Part shown: positions 1,766 to 53,035 of the stretch, in pieces
How the letters are laid out: each line of letters starts with the position of its first letter
Numbering within the stretch: position 1 is the stretch's first letter
DNA from: Desulfobacteraceae bacterium
GTDB taxonomy: Bacteria > Desulfobacterota > Desulfobacteria > Desulfobacterales > Desulfosarcinaceae
Length of the DNA: 53,035 nucleotides
Direction of reading: 5' to 3'
Assembly (NCBI GenBank): GCA_024230435.1
Contig: JAAERL010000587.1
Span: 1 to 53,035 of the forward strand
Translations under genes and position numbers: made by a program
Notes under the pieces: generated by a model
What the model saw: the letters and a program-made list of their open reading frames with translations, nothing else
Told to the model about the DNA's origin: nothing
Database searches by the model: none

Positions 1766-2160
1766 GGCCGATAGCTATCAATTTTTTTCAACTTAATCTG
1801 GCAATATATGTAACTATCCCGCCGGAGCGTTTGGTTAGGCTTTAACAGAAATCGCCTAAATAATTATCCAAATCGCAAATCATGTTGATCTTGACAAAGA
1901 TGCGGTACTTATTCCGCATATTATGTTGCATCAACATTGTTGGCTCCCTGCCAACTTTTTTGGCAATTGATATATGCATATCAAACCCGTCTTTTTTAAT
2001 TGTTTAATTTTATTCATAATATGGTTTTTGGCACGAAAATTGAATGCTTACCTCGCTCTGTAATGATTGAAAATCAAACAGCAATTTGCATAAAGCTGAA
2101 ATGGCTTGAAAAACAAGCTGGCCGCTTACTGCATGAACTTAGAAAGGATATTTACTTCAC
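1766..2160. other. Intergenic region between the small frame and the ankyrin/TPR gene
   Basis: AT-rich DNA holding a 25-bp end-only remnant of the MITE-like element at 1835-1859 and probably the promoter of the gene at 2161. A 60-codon frame at 2000-2182 overlaps that gene's start and looks non-coding. Confidence 0.5.
1835..1859 (+). repeat. End-only remnant of the MITE-like element
   Basis: The sequence starts TTAGGC and ends TTTAACAGAAATCGCCTAA. It matches the right terminus of the element at 45661-45818 joined to only a few bases of the left terminus, as if the interior had been lost. Confidence 0.5.
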
Positions 2161-4812
2161 ATGGCATATTATGATCCGCTAATTGAGAAATATCAGCAAA
2201 ATAAGTATGAAGAACAATATAATCGCAATCATTCTTCAAACATAGGACGTTTACAACCGGGGGCTCAACATTCTGCCCCCCAAGCCTATGTTGATGAGCC
2301 TGGTGGTTATAAAAATGATTATCAATTTAGCGATGAGGGGGTCCCCTATAATAATAACCCTTTTTTAAAATTAAAGCCTTCTGATCCTGCTAAAGATACC
2401 CCTGGCGTTACCGAGTTGGGATTCGGATTTGATAAGCCCAACCAAAATATACCGGCCTCAGCACCTCCTGAACATAGCATCGAAAAGTCTGGCATAAGGC
2501 CCGTAAATACTAATAACTTTAACGATATGGGCTGTGGATTGAATAGTTTATCAAACGATAATGTATATCCATCAGCCCCTCCTATGGACGCTGCAGAAAA
2601 CAACAACGATCCTGCCCAAAGATATACCACGGATGATAAAATAGATTCTTTGAAAAATTTTTTACCGGTGTTGAATGGTGGGAGACCATTTAAATTTAGT
2701 AAAAAGAATGCTTTTAATCAACTGCAAAAAAATTTTAAGGAGATGGCAATATATAACGGTTCTGAAAGGGAAAAAAAATTAAAGATAATTTTTGAAAAGT
2801 TAGCTGGTCCCAAATTTACGAGAAAAAATAGCCAGAAACACCCCTTGCACGTTGCCTGTGAAAAAGGCCATGCTCCTGTCGCAGCCGGAATTATGACATT
2901 TGATGCGTGGGCGCAGAACAATCTTGTGAATATGCGTGATTGCCACGGCCAGACGCCGCTTTTCAAGGCAGCGGCCAACGGGCATAATGAAATTACAGGT
3001 CTGCTGTTAAATGAAAATAATATCGTTATAAATACACCCGATAGCAAAGGCAAAACACCACTTCAGGCAGCGGTAGCCAATGGACATTTGGATGCTGCGG
3101 TGATGCTGATAAATGAAGGAGCCAAAGACGATAAGGCTATATACGATCTGTTTTTTCAAGCGGTGCAAAACGGCCGCAACGATATTGTGCGACAGTCGCT
3201 GAATGTTGAAGGCATTGGCATTGATGTGAATAAGATTGGCAGCAAAGGCAAAACGCCACTTCAGACAGCGGTAGCCAATGGACATTTGGATGTTGCGGCG
3301 ACGTTGATAAATGAAGGAGCCAAAGACGCTGAGGCTATGTACGATCTGTTTTTTCAAGCGGTGCGAAACGGCCGCAACGATATTGTGCAACTTTTGAAAA
3401 AGGCGGATGTTAAATTTGACGAACTGAAACTCGCTAAACAATACTTCGACCGTGGGAAAGCCATGGAAAAATCAGGCAACCACAAGAGCGCAATCGATGA
3501 TTATGAAATGGCAATCAAATTAAATCTAAACAACGCTGACGTATACTACAATCTTGGGAGAGTCAGGGGAAAATTAGATGAGTTCGAGGGCGCAAGGGAT
3601 GCTTTTAAAAAGGCAACCGAATTAAATCCAAAACACGCTGACGCATACTACAGGCTTGGGAACGCCATGAAAAAATTACGCGAGTTCGAGGGCGCAAGGG
3701 ATGCTTTTGAAAAGGCAACCGAATTAAATCTAAAACACGCTGACGCATACTTCAATCTTGGGGACGTTAAGGTAAAATTAGGCGAGCTCGAGGGCGCAAA
3801 GGCTGCTTTTAAAAAGGCAACCGAATTAAATCCAAAACACGCTGACGCATACTTCAATCTTGGACTCGTCAAGTATTATACAAACGACTACAAGGGCGCA
3901 AAGGATGCTTATGAAAAGGCAATCGACTTAAATCCAAAAGACGCTGACGCATACTACAGGCTTGGGAACGCCAGGAGTAAATTAGGCGACAAAGCTGGCG
4001 CAAGGGATGCTTTTAAAAAGGCAACCGAATTAAATCCAAAACACGTCGGCGCACACTCCGGTCTTGGGAACACCAAGTATGAATTAGGTGACATCAAAGG
4101 CGCAAAGGCTGCTTATAAGAAGGCAAGCAAATTAAATCCAAACGATGCTTTCGCACACATCGATCTTGGACGCGTCAGGGAAAGATTAGGCGACCATAAA
4201 GGCGCAATCAAGGCTTATGAAAAGGCAATCGACTTAAATCCAAAATTAGCCGAATCAATAAATCCAAAATTAGCTTCCGCATACTACAATCTTGGGGTCG
4301 TCAGTAGTAAATTAGGCGACCATAAAGGCGCAATCAAGGCTTATGAAAAGGCAATCGACTTAAATCCAAACAACATTGACGCACACATCGAACTTGGGGT
4401 CGTCATGCATTATAATACAAAAGACTTCGAGGGCGCAATCAAGGCTTATGAAAAGGCAATCGACTTAAATCCAAAATTAGCTGAATTAATAAATCCAAGA
4501 TTAGCTTCCGCATACTACGGTCTTGGGCTCGTCTGGGATAAATTAGGCGTGCTCAAAGACGCAAAGGCTGCTTTTAAAAAGGCAATCGAATTAAATCCAA
4601 AACACGCTGGCGCATACATCGGTCTTGGGAACGCCAAGTATGCATTAGGCAAATTCCATGGCGCAAAGAAGGCTTATGAAACGGCAATCCAATTAAAACC
4701 AGACAACGCATACGCACACATCGGTCTTGGGAACGCCAAGTCTAAATTACGCGACTTCGCTGGCGCAAGGGCTGCTTATGAAATGGCAGAAAAATTAAAA
4801 TCAAATATGTAA
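2161..4812 (+). CDS. Ankyrin plus TPR repeat protein, 883 aa
   Basis: Residues ~1-165 are disordered, rich in Asn, Pro and Tyr, and include two SAPP motifs. Residues ~225-415 form ankyrin-type repeats (HPLHVACEKGH, QTPLFKAAANGH, KTPLQAAVANGH). From ~425 to the end there are about twelve 34-residue TPR units of the form AYYNLG...GA..A(Y/F)EKAI.LNP. The TPR DNA is a near-identical 102-bp tandem array, and within the ankyrin part a ~145-bp segment at 3044-3188 recurs at 3242-3386. Two TPR units carry an extra LAE.INPKLA insert. No signal peptide or membrane segment is seen. The gene is monocistronic, closed by a strong hairpin, and starts at ATG 2161 after GAAAGGA. It is probably a protein-binding scaffold; function is unknown. 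Confidence 0.9.
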   Translation: MAYYDPLIEKYQQNKYEEQYNRNHSSNIGRLQPGAQHSAPQAYVDEPGGYKNDYQFSDEGVPYNNNPFLKLKPSDPAKDTPGVTELGFGFDKPNQNIPASAPPEHSIEKSGIRPVNTNNFNDMGCGLNSLSNDNVYPSAPPMDAAENNNDPAQRYTTDDKIDSLKNFLPVLNGGRPFKFSKKNAFNQLQKNFKEMAIYNGSEREKKLKIIFEKLAGPKFTRKNSQKHPLHVACEKGHAPVAAGIMTFDAWAQNNLVNMRDCHGQTPLFKAAANGHNEITGLLLNENNIVINTPDSKGKTPLQAAVANGHLDAAVMLINEGAKDDKAIYDLFFQAVQNGRNDIVRQSLNVEGIGIDVNKIGSKGKTPLQTAVANGHLDVAATLINEGAKDAEAMYDLFFQAVRNGRNDIVQLLKKADVKFDELKLAKQYFDRGKAMEKSGNHKSAIDDYEMAIKLNLNNADVYYNLGRVRGKLDEFEGARDAFKKATELNPKHADAYYRLGNAMKKLREFEGARDAFEKATELNLKHADAYFNLGDVKVKLGELEGAKAAFKKATELNPKHADAYFNLGLVKYYTNDYKGAKDAYEKAIDLNPKDADAYYRLGNARSKLGDKAGARDAFKKATELNPKHVGAHSGLGNTKYELGDIKGAKAAYKKASKLNPNDAFAHIDLGRVRERLGDHKGAIKAYEKAIDLNPKLAESINPKLASAYYNLGVVSSKLGDHKGAIKAYEKAIDLNPNNIDAHIELGVVMHYNTKDFEGAIKAYEKAIDLNPKLAELINPRLASAYYGLGLVWDKLGVLKDAKAAFKKAIELNPKHAGAYIGLGNAKYALGKFHGAKKAYETAIQLKPDNAYAHIGLGNAKSKLRDFAGARAAYEMAEKLKSNM

Positions 4813-6888: not shown

Positions 6889-7857
6889 AACTGATCCTCC
6901 GTAGATTTGAATAACAATTATTCTGCTGCAAAACAACGCACGTCAAAAGCAAAAATGTTATAAATTTTATCGTTTCTCCTCAAAATAATCATGCCGGGGC
7001 ATATACTATATTTTCCACAAACACCATGATGTTCTTATCTTTATAATCGCTGCCAGAAGCAATTTATTTTTCACGAATAATTTTGCACTAATAAGAACAT
7101 GATCAACTTGTTAAGCCGGCAAGTTAATAGATCCAAATGTCTCCATTACGGCAGCAACCCGCATCCAGGCCGGGACTGTATGCCGGGTCAGGTCCGGCAT
7201 GGCTGAAGTGCTCTTTTTAATCGTCAGCCTTATAGATAACCCGAACATGATTAAATGTTCAGCAAAATTTGTAGTTTTTTTGAAAATGCCTGAAATATGG
7301 GCTTTTACAGAGATTATACCGATTAAAAACCTCATAATTACGAGTTTACAATACCAATATGTTTTTAAAAAAACAATTTACTATTTTTTTTATAATTTTG
7401 TGCACATGTTATACTGTGTAAGTCCTTATCTGATATAGTTTTAATAATTATTACTATCTCTGTGGGTGCTATTTTGAGGCATTTTCAGCGATCATTCTTT
7501 GTAGCCCCGCTACAATTAAACTTTTACGCCTAATTGCAATGAATTTATCTTAACATTTAAGAATAGTCTAATTAGTTTTGTGTATACACACGATAACCGT
7601 TTTTAATACCTTGAAATCTGCTCTCCTGGCCCGCCTGACAAAAACTTAATACCCTAATTTTGCACGTAAATAGCCAACAGGTAACTTGCTCTCAGATTTT
7701 TTAAGATTATCCAGCGAAAATTCCCGGTAACTAAAACCGCAAATTTTTAGAATAATAAATCTGCGTCTGGCATGGGTTTATGAGGCTTTGAAGCTTTGAA
7801 GCTTGTAATAATTTTTGCCGGGCTAATAAAACACCGGTAGGTTCGCAACTGTTCCTA
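6889..7857. other. Long AT-rich intergenic region
   Basis: Almost 1 kb without a credible gene. Frames at 7111-7335 (minus) and 7199-7438 (plus) overlap each other and look non-coding. It holds a small hairpin TGCCGG...CCGGCA near 7181-7200, a copy of the dispersed 52-bp motif (7699-7730), and at its right end the short MITE-like copy at 7858-7915. Confidence 0.5.
7699..7730 (+). repeat. Dispersed 52-bp motif, partial copy
   Basis: TTTTAAGATTATCCAGCGAA followed by AATTCCCGG matches the first half of the motif at 1501 and 45497. The second half has diverged. Confidence 0.5.
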
Positions 7858-7915
7858 GGCGATTGGCGGAAAAGAATATACCCAATATGGTATATTATTT
7901 AACTGCAAATCGTCC
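7858..7915 (+). repeat. Short MITE-like element at the lysR stop codon
   Basis: The left terminus GGCGATTGGCGGAAAAGAAT is identical to that of the long copies, and the right terminus GGTATATTATTTAACTGCAA closely resembles theirs. Only about six bases separate them, so this is an internally deleted or foldback-only copy. Its right end touches the stop codon of the lysR-type gene (7915-7917). Confidence 0.65.
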
Positions 7916-8874
7916 TAAACCGGTTTTCCCAATTGGCCCGAAGTGTCATTGCGCATGTAGTTTTGCAAATTATTTTCGGCGGAAAGTAACCTAAGCCCGG
8001 AGATCAGCTCCAAAAAAGTCCGGACAGCCTTACTAATGATTTTTTTCTTTAAGAAAAACAGGTAATAATCGGCTGACAAATCAAATCCTTGAAGCTTTAC
8101 CGGCTTAAGCAATCCTAAATGCAGTTCGCGCCTGGCGGAAACCTCTGGAAGGATAGTGATGCCGAACCCTTCAATAACCGTTCTTTTGGCCGCCTCCAGA
8201 TTTTGAAGTTCAATTGTTTTTTTGGGATATTCGCCCCCGGAGTTTTTTTCTAACCATTTTTTCACAAGTACTCTTGTTTGGGTGCCCTTTTCCCGCCAGA
8301 TTAAAGGTATTTTATCGAGCGCTGTTACAGGCGTTGTTTTAGAATCAATGAAGCTATGCTCGGAGCCGGAAACTGCGATTAGTTTTTCTTTATGAATGCA
8401 AATAGTAACTATTCTTGGATTGCCTTTTAGACGGCCGGCGAAACCGATATCAACCTTACCATCCAAAATCATGTTGGCCACTTTATGTGAATTGCCCATA
8501 CGCACATCAAAATCAATGCCCGGATAGCGTTTGTTGAAACTGCCGATCATTTTTGGTAAAAAATAAGTACCCATCACGGCCGTAGCGCCAATAACAATCT
8601 TGCCTTTTTGGAGCCCGTGCAATTGGCCGAACAGCACTTCGATTTGTTCCAGCAAACTAAAGAGTTTGTCAGTATAAGACAAAAGCAGTTTACCTTCAGC
8701 AGTCAGGGTGACTTTTTTTCCTGAGCGATCAAACAAGATGATTCCATAATGCGTTTCAAGGGATTGGATTTGCTGACTGATGGCCGGCTGAGTTAGGAAG
8801 AGTTCCCTTGCGGCCACTGTGAAGCTGCCGACTTCGGCAACTTTGTGGAAAGCGTTTAGTTGATCAAAGTTCAT
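7915..8874 (-). CDS. LysR-family transcriptional regulator, 319 aa
   Basis: Residues 1-60 form the winged helix-turn-helix (FTVAARELFLTQPAISQQIQ), and ~90-290 the periplasmic-binding-like effector domain (GKIVIGATAVMGTYFLP, GKVDIGFAG, GFGITILPE). Length is normal for the family, although the last ~25 residues look unlike a conserved LysR tail and end in a repeat element, so the C-terminus may have been changed by insertion. It is divergent from the CYTH/tctCBA genes with ~140 bases between, the usual arrangement for a LysR regulator and its target. The effector is unknown. Confidence 0.92.
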   Translation of the reverse strand: MNFDQLNAFHKVAEVGSFTVAARELFLTQPAISQQIQSLETHYGIILFDRSGKKVTLTAEGKLLLSYTDKLFSLLEQIEVLFGQLHGLQKGKIVIGATAVMGTYFLPKMIGSFNKRYPGIDFDVRMGNSHKVANMILDGKVDIGFAGRLKGNPRIVTICIHKEKLIAVSGSEHSFIDSKTTPVTALDKIPLIWREKGTQTRVLVKKWLEKNSGGEYPKKTIELQNLEAAKRTVIEGFGITILPEVSARRELHLGLLKPVKLQGFDLSADYYLFFLKKKIISKAVRTFLELISGLRLLSAENNLQNYMRNDTSGQLGKPV

Positions 8875-15601: not shown

Positions 15602-16026
15602 CAAAAAAGAAATTTTTCCAATGGCATGAATTGTTTCCAGATAAATTTCCGCACTTGATCTGGAACAAATTTTTCTGTTTGCCCGATAAACACAAATTAA
15701 TATGCGTTGGATGAACTTAAAGCTTAAGTTTTTAGCATCTTAAGCCGATGCGCATTATAACAACGACTCTGACAACGAGCTTTAAGTTATTGTGGAATCG
15801 AAGAAAGTAACTATCATAAAGGCCTTGGAAGCTGCAAATGTAGCGTCATTGCATCAGATTTGTATTCTTTTTCAAAAAACAAAGATGGGTGCATACTCAA
15901 AGTCTTTGCCCTTTGGATCAACAAACGAAAACGGATTCAATGACAAGCAAGAGTGCAATATTTGCACTTTCCAAGACCCTGAACATGAATGGGCATATCG
16001 CGTGACGCTATCCGGGGACGCTGTTT
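15602..16026. other. Intergenic region with a dispersed repeat
   Basis: An 80-codon frame at 15792-16034 runs through the repeat copy at 15864-15942 and is probably not a gene. Otherwise nothing recognisable; the promoter of the metallophosphoesterase gene should lie here. Confidence 0.5.
15864..15942 (+). repeat. Palindrome-ended dispersed repeat, copy 1
   Basis: The core ATGGGTGCATACTCAAAG and the right end GCGAAAACGAATTC-like sequence (here ACGAAAACGGATTCAA) match, in inverted orientation, the copy at 32233-32320. Its left end is more diverged than that of the other copy. Confidence 0.6.
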
Positions 16027-32170: not shown

Positions 32171-32232
32171 TTATCCCACCGGCTTGTCTTGATTTATATG
32201 GCCCCTTGATTTATATGGCCTCTTTATCCAAT

Positions 32233-32320
32233 GCCTTTTGAATTCGTTTTCGCTTTTTGCGCCAAAGGGTCAAAGGCTTTGAGTATGCACCCATATTTTC
32301 TTTTTGAAAACGAATCCGAA
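32233..32320 (-). repeat. Palindrome-ended dispersed repeat, copy 2
   Basis: The ends TTGAATTCGTTTTC and GAAAACGAATCCGAA form an inverted pair around a core with CTTTGAGTATGCACCCAT. The core and one end match the copy at 15864-15942 in the opposite orientation. Just upstream, TTGATTTATATGGCC is duplicated in tandem (about 32190-32221). Confidence 0.65.
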
Positions 32321-32378
32321 TCCGGCGCAATACGCTATACTTACAACCTCCAACACCCTTAAAAATAAGGAGTATAAA

Positions 32379-33621: not shown

Positions 33622-33876
33622 AATAGACTCCGATCAATAATTGAAAATTAAATACCGAGTGCCAATATTAAGGCCCATAACGATATTGTCAATCATTGTT
33701 CGAAGGTATGTAAGTTTTACAATGCAGCAGAAAATGTTTGTTATTGCGCTTAGATTTGGATCCGTTTTTAAGGCGCATCAATGGTTGCATCGACTAATAG
33801 TCTGTGGACATTGACGCAACACAAAAAACGAATTTATGGACAAGCAACAGTGGTGTATTCGCTTTTTCCACGAGCC

Positions 33877-34173
33877 CTAACTATGAGAATCGAGTTGATC
33901 TGGTTCCAGATCTTGCTTTAGAGCCCTTTTAATGCGTTTCCGTGTATCATCGGAAAGTGTTTGCACTTCCTGTTCCTGCCCATTTATTTTTTCTGACAAT
34001 CTCCAGCGGCAAGCGGCGCTAATGGACTTGAACTGTTCGTCAAGTTTTTTACAAGGCGGGCAAATCCATTGATGGATTTTGATGTACATACGCTCCCGAA
34101 AAGATAAAGGGCGGTCCATGCATCTGGATACCATTTCAGCATATTCTTTGCAGTTAATCATCCAGCGTTGCAT
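33877..34173 (-). CDS. Zinc-finger anti-sigma factor, 98 aa
   Basis: A small soluble protein with INCKEY...C.D..LS at the start and HQWICPPC, the HxxxCxxC zinc motif of ZAS anti-sigma factors. It lies 18 bases downstream of the ECF sigma gene on the same strand. There is no membrane segment, so it would act in the cytoplasm, perhaps sensing redox or metals through its cysteines. GGAG precedes the ATG at 34173. The C-terminal third is acidic and probably disordered. Confidence 0.8.
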   Translation of the reverse strand: MQRWMINCKEYAEMVSRCMDRPLSFRERMYIKIHQWICPPCKKLDEQFKSISAACRWRLSEKINGQEQEVQTLSDDTRKRIKRALKQDLEPDQLDSHS

Positions 34174-44022: not shown

Positions 44023-44326
44023 CAATGATTGGTTCTTACAATTTAGCCTTTAGGCCGTAAAGCCCGGAAGCTTTAGCTTTGGGGTATAAGTCTTGCTTTA
44101 GGCGATTTGCAGTTAAAGAATATACCATCTTGTATGTCTTTTTTCCGTCTTGTGCGTTATGCCAAAGGTGCGAATACGTAAAGTATGCAAACTGATCATC
44201 AATCTTTGGCGCGCCTTGAATACGAAAAAAATCGAAGCTCAATCTGGTATATTCTTTTCCGCCAATCGCCTTAGCATTTTATTATTGGCATAAAATTATT
44301 TTACACTGGACTGATTTGTCCCGTGC
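44023..44326. other. Intergenic region between rsmD and cheR
   Basis: Most of this gap is the inverted MITE-like copy at 44101-44270. A 68-codon minus-strand frame at 44036-44242 is carried by that element. The stretch 44045-44100 left of it (CCGTAAAGCCCGGAAGCTTT) may belong to a longer form of the repeat. Confidence 0.5.
44101..44270 (-). mobile_element. MITE-like element, long copy A (170 bp)
   Basis: Ends are inverted repeats of ~25 bp: GGCGATT...AAAGAATATACC at the left and GGTATATTCTTTTCCGCC followed by AATCGCC at the right. The interior matches copy B (45661-45818) in inverted orientation, including CATACAAGATGGTATATTC, and has ~12 extra bases. TTA flanks both ends, so a TA or TTA target duplication is possible. 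It carries a 68-codon frame but no transposase. Confidence 0.7.
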
Positions 44327-45130
44327 TCATGCTGTTTTTTTATAAAACCAGGGACAGTTTTTATCCCGTAACAGCGGTAAAGGCAGAGCCGGTAGCCGCT
44401 CGTGTGATCCGAGAACCAGGTACCTGTCCATGGAAAGAGATTTTAGAATGCGTTTTAAAGCCTGCTCCAAAACATCGCCCTGATAATAGGTCAGCAGGTT
44501 ATTGCGCAGAAAAAGCAAGTGAAAATCCTTTTCAATCGGAAAATCCAACACATCATGGCGCATTAACCTGACAATGGACTTAAGCTCCGGCCTGAGTATG
44601 AAATGCTTTTCATTTTTGGAGATATGAAAATACCGTGTCAACAGATCCTGCGGAACCTCCTTGACACTGTTTTTGTAGTAAACAGCTTTTTGAGCCCGCT
44701 CCAGGCAATCGGACCTGATGTCCGTAGCCAGAATATCCAATGGGACCTGAGTATTTAGATTTTCATTCAGAACATGCCAAACCATGGCCAGGCTGTAGGG
44801 TTCTTCACCACCGGAACAGCCTGCCGACCAAGCTCTTATGCCATTGGGAAAAAGCCTGATGAGCCCGGGCAGGATAACATGGCATAAATGATCCCAGAGC
44901 TGCCGGTCGCGAAAAAACCTGGTGATGGTTACTACCAGCTTTTGCTGGCAAGCATGACCGATTTCAGGATCATCTTGTACAAGGGCCAGGTAGTGCTCAA
45001 AACACCGGCAATCCAACTGCGCCATATGCCTGCGTATGCGTTTTTTAATACCTTTACGGACTTTTCTAAATCCGGCCCAAGGGCGATCGAAATGTGCCAA
45101 CAGCAGCCGGAATTGATCATCACTGAGCAT
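44327..45130 (-). CDS. cheR: CheR-family protein methyltransferase, 267 aa
   Basis: The helical N-terminal domain (TRFFRDRQLWDHL) is followed by the SAM-binding domain with WSAGCSGGEEPYSLAM (102-116), ILATDIRSDCLERAQKAVY and FLRNNLLTYY in the place of the usual FCRNVLIYF. It would methylate glutamates of chemoreceptors. No other chemotaxis gene is in the window, so it may serve a distant cluster or a Che-like signalling pathway. AGGAG precedes ATG 45130. The C-terminus is of normal length. Confidence 0.9.
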   Translation of the reverse strand: MLSDDQFRLLLAHFDRPWAGFRKVRKGIKKRIRRHMAQLDCRCFEHYLALVQDDPEIGHACQQKLVVTITRFFRDRQLWDHLCHVILPGLIRLFPNGIRAWSAGCSGGEEPYSLAMVWHVLNENLNTQVPLDILATDIRSDCLERAQKAVYYKNSVKEVPQDLLTRYFHISKNEKHFILRPELKSIVRLMRHDVLDFPIEKDFHLLFLRNNLLTYYQGDVLEQALKRILKSLSMDRYLVLGSHERLPALPLPLLRDKNCPWFYKKTA

Positions 45131-45214
45131 CTTGTCACGCTCCTAAATTTTTGCCCCCTGCGTCATGCACTGCCAGGGCGGTTCGAATGTGTTGGCGCAT
45201 CTGTTGTTAATTTG

Positions 45215-45421
45215 TCAATTTAGCACTGTGCCCGGCAACGCATCCGTGCTCGTTGGGAGCAATGCCGCCGGTAACAATGAGCGCTGCATGGCCCTTTCAG
45301 CGTAAAAAACGGCCAATCGATCCCAGCCATTGAGAGCTTCTTCCAGTTCTGTATGCATGGAGCCCATATGCACGCGATTTTTCAAGGATGTAAATCCGGG
45401 ATCTAAAGGCCCCAGTAACAC
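45215..45421 (-). CDS. Possible small protein, 68 aa
   Basis: A GTG-started minus-strand frame 84 bases upstream of cheR with an amphipathic helix (ELEEALNGWDRLAVFYAERA). Composition looks coding, but no ribosome site precedes the GTG and I know no family. It may be chance. Confidence 0.25.
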   Translation of the reverse strand: MLLGPLDPGFTSLKNRVHMGSMHTELEEALNGWDRLAVFYAERAMQRSLLPAALLPTSTDALPGTVLN

Positions 45422-45496
45422 GGATGAATCGGATGGCGCATTTTTTTTCTTCTATCTTAACATTTTAGTGCCGTGGCAGGTGCAACGTCAGATTAA

Positions 45497-45550
45497 TTTA
45501 AGATTATCCAGTGAGAATTTCCGGCAATTTATTGCCTAAAGCAGTCACTC
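45497..45550 (+). repeat. Dispersed 52-bp motif, copy 3
   Basis: Begins TTTAAGATTATCCAGTGAGA and includes GGCAATTTATTGCC, matching the copy at 1501-1552 nearly base for base. It lies 111 bases before MITE-like copy B. Confidence 0.7.
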
Positions 45551-45660
45551 TTCCATTATTAAAGAATTCTATCATTTGACCGATGAAATAATAGTATACA
45601 CGAATTCAAATAACATAAATTTTGGCCTGTTGACAGTTTGCACCCAATTAAGACCGGTTA

Positions 45661-45818
45661 GGCGATTGGCGGAAAAGAATATACCAGATTGAGCTTCGAT
45701 TTTTTTCCGTATTCAAGGCGTGTCAAAGTTTGCATACTTAACGTATTCGGGCTTTGGCATAACGCAGAAGACGGGAAAAAAGACATACAAGATGGTATAT
45801 TCTTTAACAGAAATCGCC
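45661..45818 (+). mobile_element. MITE-like element, long copy B (158 bp)
   Basis: Left end GGCGATTGGCGGAAAAGAAT, right end GGTATATTCTTTAACAGAAA followed by TCGCC; as inverted repeats these agree at most positions. The interior is close to copy A. It sits 75 bases upstream of the HDOD gene, so it may influence that promoter. No transposase is encoded. Confidence 0.7.
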
Positions 45819-52408: not shown

Positions 52409-53035
52409 TTATACCTCAAAATGACCGATTAGATAATGGATAAAACAACCACCGCCGCCGCCACCACCGCCACCGCGGCCGCTTGCTGGCTCCTCATCGC
52501 AGGCATCTCCGATACCGTCACCGTCTGAATCAGTCTGATTGGTATTTTTCTCATCTATGCAATTATCGCAGGCATCACCAACACCGTCTTTGTCTGTATC
52601 CGCCTGATAGGGATTGGAGACATACGGGCAATTATCGTTGACATCTGAAACATTGTCGCCGTCATCGTCATCGTCATCATCATCATCGTCATCATCGTCG
52701 TCATCATCATCGTCGTCATCATCATCGTCGTCATCATCGTCATCGCAGGCATCACCATAGTCATCGTTGTCTGAATCAGCCTGATCGGGGTTGGAGATGT
52801 CCTGACAATTATCGCAGGCATCACCATAGTCATCGTTGTCTGAATCAGCCTGATCGGGGTTGGAGATGTCCTGACAATTATCGCAGGCATCACCATAGTC
52901 ATCGCCGTCTGAATTAGCCTGATCGGCATTTTCCTTGTCTATGCAATTATCGCAGGCATCACCAACACCGTCTTTGTCTGTATCCGCCTGATCGGCATTA
53001 GCTGTCAGCGGGCAATTATCGTTGATATCTAAAAC
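52409..53035 (-). CDS. Thrombospondin type 3 repeat protein with 28 consecutive Asp, N-terminus outside the window
   Basis: The minus strand is open from the right edge to a TAA at 52411-52409, leaving 208 residues. They form 23-residue calcium-binding repeats (DACDNC....NPDQADSD.DG.G) at 69-bp spacing; the units at 52745-52813 and 52814-52882 are identical. At 52661-52744 lie 28 codons for Asp only (GAT and GAC mixed). After two more repeats, the end is SGRG and a run of eight Gly, then CFIHYLIGHFEV. This resembles the Gly-rich CFIATAAYG tail of many deltaproteobacterial surface proteins, but the usual residues after CFI are missing. It is likely a secreted calcium-binding protein. Confidence 0.8.
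   Translation of the reverse strand, partial: VLDINDNCPLTANADQADTDKDGVGDACDNCIDKENADQANSDGDDYGDACDNCQDISNPDQADSDNDDYGDACDNCQDISNPDQADSDNDDYGDACDDDDDDDDDDDDDDDDDDDDDDDDDDDDGDNVSDVNDNCPYVSNPYQADTDKDGVGDACDNCIDEKNTNQTDSDGDGIGDACDEEPASGRGGGGGGGGGCFIHYLIGHFEV

Follow-up and report, generated by a model that had tools for sequence, protein, structure and literature searches.

What is a 170-bp repeat that encodes no transposase, what moves it, and why should the interior of such an element be kept when its ends are not? These questions are raised by a locus in the 53,035-nt stretch of Desulfobacteraceae DNA analysed here (the window), for which the original prediction, made from the letters alone, described a MITE-like family of four copies sharing terminal inverted repeats that begin GGCGATT. 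All four places were located as described (Table 1), and the short length, the inverted termini, the duplicated target and the many copies identify the family as a MITE. It was also right that no transposase is encoded in the element, as 170 bp is shorter than any transposase gene needs, and the partner must lie elsewhere. The count of four holds for the places it named and falls far short of the family, which has 370 exact termini in the source genome and is joined in the window by three more cores that were absent from the first list; these have the same interior as the MITE behind GGGTC-type or eroded ends. Further, with up to 2 mismatches allowed, the window contains 17 occurrences of the terminal motif AAAGAATATACC, where 6.3 would be expected, and 0 of 100 shuffles gave as many.

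Table 1. Copies of the MITE, their structured cores and related elements in the window; R1 is a covariance model of the core.
Feature	Position	Strand	Flanks, ends and scores
Full-length MITE, GGCGATT type, 170 bp	44101..44270	+	TTA duplication at 44098-44100 and 44271-44273
Structured core of the 44101..44270 copy	44127..44246	- (the better-folding strand)	R1 52.8 bits, E 1.9e-10
Full-length MITE, inverted copy, 158 bp	45661..45818	-	Flanks TTA / TTG
Structured core of the 45661..45818 copy	45685..45793	+	R1 95.8 bits, E 7.8e-21
Ends-only deletion derivative	7858..7914	-	
Remnant, GGC + TTTAACAGAAATCGCC	1838..1856	+	Between TTA (1835-1837) and TAA (1857-1859)
Related element, other terminus (GGGCTCGTGGAAAAAGCGAATACACC), second end eroded	33716..33879 (low boundary approximate)	+	Core 33740-33850, R1 56.7 bits, E 2.2e-11
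Related element, ends GGGTCTTGGAAAGTGC / GGCCTTGGAAGCTGC	15821..15979	+	Core 15845-15953, R1 36.5 bits, E 1.7e-6
Related element, one end GGGTGTTGGAGG..., second end eroded	32228..32358	-	Core 32228-32334, R1 weak, 18.9 bits, E 0.031; nhmmer E 6.3e-6

Several other features of the window may be recorded here. The ends-only copy is bordered by the TAG stop codon (7915-7917) of an ORF at 7915..8874 on the minus strand, and a TAG stop also lies at a MITE edge elsewhere in the genome (L076, 18990-18992); at both sites the G is the first base of the element or adjoins it. A second dispersed repeat (TTTAAGATTATCCAGTGAGAATT...GGCAATTTATTGCC) is present at 1501-1552, 7700-7751 and 45497-45548, the latter two being 62% and 88% identical to the first, and a MITE copy or remnant is present no more than about 300 bp from each of them. 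Repeated units occur at 3325-4797 (spacing 102 nt, within the ORF 2161..4812) and at 52496-53017 (spacing 69 nt).

A search of the whole source genome (6.13 Mb) for the exact terminus GGCGATTN{4,9}AAGAATATACC returned 192 + 178 = 370 matches, and the reversed pattern, used as a control, returned 0. Closer study drew on a sample of about 797 kb, namely the window and forty stretches of up to 20 kb picked around known copies and hence representing the neighbourhoods of the element and not the genome at random. With as many as 4 mismatches allowed, 203 termini were counted in this sample, a part of them due to chance. Facing ends less than 260 bp apart form 73 pairs, mostly 157-175 bp, and a few of these, such as a 235-bp pair in L057, are perhaps not genuine copies. 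Median pairwise identity among the 63 full-length copies is 0.936; as 131 of the 1953 pairs are at least 0.97 identical, some members of the family are young. Counted by its interior, with at most 150 candidates scored per genome, the element is present at least 150 times in the source genome (all 150 candidates match), at least 145 times in G019 (145 of 150) and at least 67 times in G341 (67 of 150). Several contigs of the source genome (for example C60, C129, C130 and C145) start about 110 nt from a MITE terminus, and the element therefore probably breaks the assembly.

The flanks of the 73 two-ended copies define the target. Identical TWA triplets stand on both sides in 57 of them (TAA/TAA 29, TTA/TTA 28), the remainder being TAA/TTA (4), TTA/TAA (2) or other (10), and the base preceding the triplet is C or T in 64. 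As the third base is duplicated as well, the target is the 3-bp TWA and not TA; of the "TA or TTA" first proposed, TA alone can be set aside and TTA stands as one half of TWA. The original prediction had also asked for empty sites, and one is present within the source genome itself, where a MITE copy (L059:10900-11070) is nested within a second repeat. Joined with one triplet removed, its flanks align across the junction to copy-free relatives in 16 alignments at 81-91% identity, which include window positions 33794-33879 and one place in L074 that differs by 7 nt in length. With 370 exact termini and an empty site, the family is therefore neither lacking in further copies nor confined to orthologous transcribed positions as a conserved RNA structure, the two outcomes named at the outset as speaking against mobility.

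The mobiliser is likely an ISAzo13-family transposase, and from sequence comparison this family can be named with good confidence. Termini of the form GGYGATT-N6/7-AAAGAATATACC, about 25 bp long, are common to the window MITE family and to several ISAzo13 elements of relatives, and ISAzo13 transposases (PF07592) are encoded in 7 of the 10 genomes matching the element. The ends at six such loci (L147, L152, L153, L154, L155 and L157) match the window-family ends at 19-23 of 25 bases, with 0 of 3000 shuffles equal in each case; the end of the remnant L148 is weaker (16 of 25 bases, 4 of 3000 shuffles as good). Both L148 (genome G019) and L147 (G120) are ISAzo13 remnants that break off a short way ahead of TWA|GGYGATT termini. 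The nearest intact transposase with a GGYGATT-type end is the 419-aa protein of L152, at which the 3' end GGTGATTTCCGAAAAAGAATTTACC was found and a second end was not; it is assigned to ISAzo13 by Pfam and NCBIfam, scoring above the NCBIfam ISAzo13 cut-off, and the IS630 model falls below its own cut-off. In L153, an ISAzo13 member by Pfam, GGTGATTCCCAACAAAGAATATACC follows immediately after the stop codon. At two loci a complete pair of ends was found. L155 spans 1389 bp between TAA and TAA, and L154 spans 1597 bp between TCA and TAA, its transposase reading frame being split. Moreover, plausible end pairs 1.3-1.4 kb apart occur at 11 ISAzo13 loci, with equal TWA triplets in L161, L165, L167, L169, L171, L174 and L180 and unequal ones in L156, L159, L162 and L172; the L131 set was counted beside the ISAzo13 loci that have the TWA duplication. 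Three-bp duplications have been reported for the ISAzo13 family (excerpts of PMC10045372), and the two marks of an ISAzo13-derived MITE, termini common to ISAzo13 elements and a 3-bp TWA duplication, were thus both found.

The transposase searches of the source genome covered PF01609, PF13340, PF07592 and the nearest ISAzo13 transposase. Neither PF07592 nor the nearest transposase gave a match in this draft of 1238 contigs, and the mobiliser was accordingly not found in the same genome as the MITE. Across the order, the near transposase is matched in 88 of 389 genomes, and it is associated with the core, being present in 33 of 97 core-bearing against 55 of 292 core-free genomes (Fisher p 0.003, relatedness ignored); the other 64 core-bearing genomes gave no match to it. 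Other candidates were considered and rejected. IS4/IS5 transposases occur in the source genome (6 places with PF01609 and 4 with PF13340), and no GGCGATT-type pair bounds any of these genes; one MITE lies near the IS4/IS5-type locus L098. The long elements between facing ends in L076 and L063 of the sample hold ordinary-looking genes and no recognised transposase. The element and its core had no match among the plasmids and phages searched, and the core pattern was not found in viral contigs. Five viral matches to the terminus pattern look like chance, because none has TWA ahead of GG.

It is the interior that sets this family apart, and matches to the element in relatives are often limited to it. 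A 104-nt query from the ~108-nt interior matched 97 of the 389 genomes of the order (own included), in 46 of 150 genera, and 9 of 395 genomes sampled over the phylum, again with the own genome included. A pattern scan of named genomes yielded 38 stretches with the core, from Desulfobacterales, Desulfocapsa, Desulfobulbaceae MAGs, one Bifidobacterium and several Gammaproteobacteria, namely Methylococcaceae UBA2778, Methyloprofundus, the methanotroph symbiont of Bathymodiolus platifrons and other MAGs. The covariance model R1, which was built partly from these same 38 stretches, matches all of them at E <=0.01; the weak matches are a pair in Bifidobacterium (33 bits each) and those in the RS_12_30 MAG (32-39 bits). 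By these matches, the core is common to at least two phyla, Desulfobacterota and, through the Gammaproteobacteria, Pseudomonadota. The Bifidobacterium pair lies in B. tibiigranuli (L211:2056-2121 and 2252-2363), about 130 nt apart and beside direct repeats TCAGTGCTGGTTCCCA.

The ends that adjoin this core vary: besides GGCGATT..., they include GGACCGCAAATTTTATAACTTGAA..., GGCACTCGGAAACAAATAATTG..., GGGTCTGACCC..., GGATCGCGAACTTAATAACTTG..., GGGACTTGGAAATAAAGGATATACC and others. Among 50 diverse members with assigned ends, 36 have an identical TWA triplet on both sides, and most of the elements are 152-162 bp long. Since the assignment of ends favours TWA, a control was made at displaced positions for 40 of the 51 members of a core alignment (A1, mostly one core per genome); identical triplets stood at 29 of 40 real positions against 1 of 148 displaced ones. 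The variety extends to single genomes. A simple text test on the source-genome sample assigned GGCGATT-type ends to 86 of 130 cores, the remaining 44 being bounded by different or eroded ends, and at L091:2957 a core of the GGCGATT type seems to be joined to an end of the GGGTC type. The converse is seen in genome G102 (L108-L119 and L125), where GGYGATT ends enclose an unrelated hairpin (GTTTGTAGTTCCGCCTTCAGGCGG...) and a looser terminus pattern has 143 matches. As a class, MITE ends resemble those of ISAzo13, with a mean score of 11-12 compared with 6.1 after shuffling. The proposal that ends follow the resident transposase was not borne out, the MITE ends being no closer to the ISAzo13 ends of the same genome than to those of others (permutation p 0.21, 11 genomes with both). 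Nor does the core appear to belong to the ISAzo13 elements themselves: 39 of 41 partly overlapping loci are without it, and at the remaining two, L131 and L158, its position is outside the IS. Overall, alignment indicates that the core is conserved independently of its ends, across genera and phyla, while the termini change, and these would have been exchanged or gradually replaced around it.

What, then, is being conserved? The core folds as a long asymmetric hairpin with fixed asymmetric internal loops. Its pairing was assessed on A2, a set of 42 cores left after near-duplicates and poor fits (L193, L195, L197, L210, L231, L242, L253, L089 and L064) were removed from A1. On the reverse strand 93.7% of the A2 cells are standard pairs, and 26 of the 34 pairs show changes on both sides, amounting to 174 both-side-change cells, where shuffles gave 47.6 and slid versions 23-40. 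RNAalifold on all 51 cores likewise gave both-side changes in 19 of 23 pairs. The invariant columns among the 51 are the two T of an unpaired GCGTT, together with the opposite CCTTG. On the A1 strand the internal mismatches are mostly C.A or A.C (38 of 51 at columns 22/93, 22 of 51 at 21/94, 25 of 51 at 50/67, 22 of 48 at 49/68 and 20 of 51 at 48/69); as these become G.U on the other strand, the reverse strand accordingly folds lower. As RNA it does so in 49 of 51 cores (-41.3 against -30.3 kcal/mol; z -6.3 against -3.6), a difference of 11.0 kcal/mol compared with 2.9 in shuffles. With DNA parameters the same strand folds lower in 46 of 51 and the difference is 3.4 kcal/mol. This preference for the reverse strand therefore points to one functional strand, and the folding models suggest that the active form of the core is probably RNA. 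No Rfam 15 family matches over the cores of the window and eight other loci, the weak hits falling outside them.

We thus favour, with a probability of roughly 0.8, a non-autonomous transposon of two modules, in which exchangeable ISAzo13-type ends surround a selected, structured core that is probably RNA. The first module is seen in the TWA duplication, the empty site and the recurrence of these termini on ISAzo13 elements in relatives; the second in the conservation, covariation and strand preference of the core. A DDE transposase of the ISAzo13 family, acting in trans, would recognise the ~25-bp terminal inverted repeats, insert the element at TWA and duplicate those 3 bp, and the ~108-nt core would form its long one-strand hairpin, maintained by selection, under many ISAzo13-like termini.

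Other explanations would account for parts of these observations. A palindromic, high-copy, intergenic element might be an ordinary IS630/Tc1-type MITE with a TA target, the partner that the original prediction thought would fit, or a REP/REPIN system; both are extremely improbable here. The duplication spans the 3 bp of TWA and not the 2 bp of TA, with mixed TAA and TTA triplets in 6 of 73 copies, and the closest transposase associated with ends of this kind clears the ISAzo13 cut-off and stays below that of IS630, so that ISAzo13 fits instead; the target duplication also makes REP/REPIN unlikely. The core could, on another reading, be functionless, its arms kept complementary only by template switching at quasi-palindromes. 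Such an event seems visible in the related genomes of L267 and L269, which have the same insertion with the same flanks, where the right arm of L269 is an exact copy of its left arm and that of L267 is not. Correction of this kind would remove the internal loops too, whereas it is the unpaired GTT and CCTT positions that are invariant, and a strand preference of 11 kcal/mol, against 2.9 in shuffles, is not expected from it; we regard this account as improbable.

If selection acts on the core, its target could still be single-stranded DNA, for example on the lagging strand, a form that we consider possible and not very likely. The same strand is the better one with DNA parameters (46 of 51), the whole window copy folded as DNA does better than 200 of 200 shuffles, and in G341 there is a hint of replication bias: GC skew places 23 of 36 cores among the matches listed against the replication direction, and 14 of 17 within one half, again among the matches listed. 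This bias of 13 with and 23 against is not significant, however (sign test p 0.13), G019 has no usable skew (114 positions among the matches listed), and RNA parameters separate the two strands more widely than DNA parameters do (by 11 and 3.4 kcal/mol, respectively). An RNA core might alternatively serve the host, acting as a regulatory element within transcripts of the adjacent genes; ERIC and the NEMIS of Neisseria have been proposed to work in this way. Nearly all copies are indeed intergenic, with 2 of 130 cores inside an ORF of at least 110 aa against 67% of random points, and functions of this kind have been reported for further small repeats in bacteria (excerpts of PMC2229807). The 111 cores with two neighbours show no preference for gene direction, both neighbours lying on one strand in 30 cases and on the other in 28 by rough ORF-based gene calls; a cis role in host transcripts is therefore not indicated, and we think it unlikely. 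Given intergenic copies without such a preference, the core would most likely, if tentatively, serve the element itself, in its spread, control or tolerance, and not the neighbouring genes.

How does this arrangement compare with known systems? Some members of the ISAzo13 insertion sequences have termini of the GGYGATT group and duplicate TWA as the MITE does; unlike them, the window element has no transposase, and the core is absent from 39 of 41 ISAzo13 loci. The ISAzo13 family is itself related to the eukaryotic Zator. A conserved central core joined to differing ends is also seen in the CORE-SINEs of animals, which are copied through RNA, whereas the window element has the duplications of a DNA transposon. 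For Correia/NEMIS, ERIC and CIR, we know of no case like the present one, in which the interior is conserved across genera and phyla under many different ends. These and other bacterial MITEs are otherwise similar, being small, intergenic and high in copy number, with inverted ends and RNA hairpins, and CIR is conserved between species (excerpts of PMC2229807 and PMC10969869). The Chunjie MITE of Geobacter uraniireducens resembles the window element in its description, a review excerpt portraying it as abundant, mostly intergenic and with size variants. Among the papers listed by literature searches, no title or abstract opening described this element or ISAzo13 MITEs.

The usual pattern of a MITE, constrained ends around a drifting middle, is turned round here: it is the middle that is conserved, and the ends vary between genomes and even within a single genome. 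This is a sign that a transposon taken to be empty contains a function under selection. It is conceivable, though we put it below even odds, that the core represents an undescribed class of structured RNA on DNA transposons, present in at least two phyla (with the weak pair in Bifidobacterium), which has repeatedly acquired new transposon ends and which the element requires in trans for its own spread or control. Such elements would offer a system in which the control of a cut-and-paste element by RNA, or by folded DNA, could be directly tested, and they connect the ISAzo13 transposases with repeats that are abundant in sulfate reducers and in symbiotic methanotrophs.
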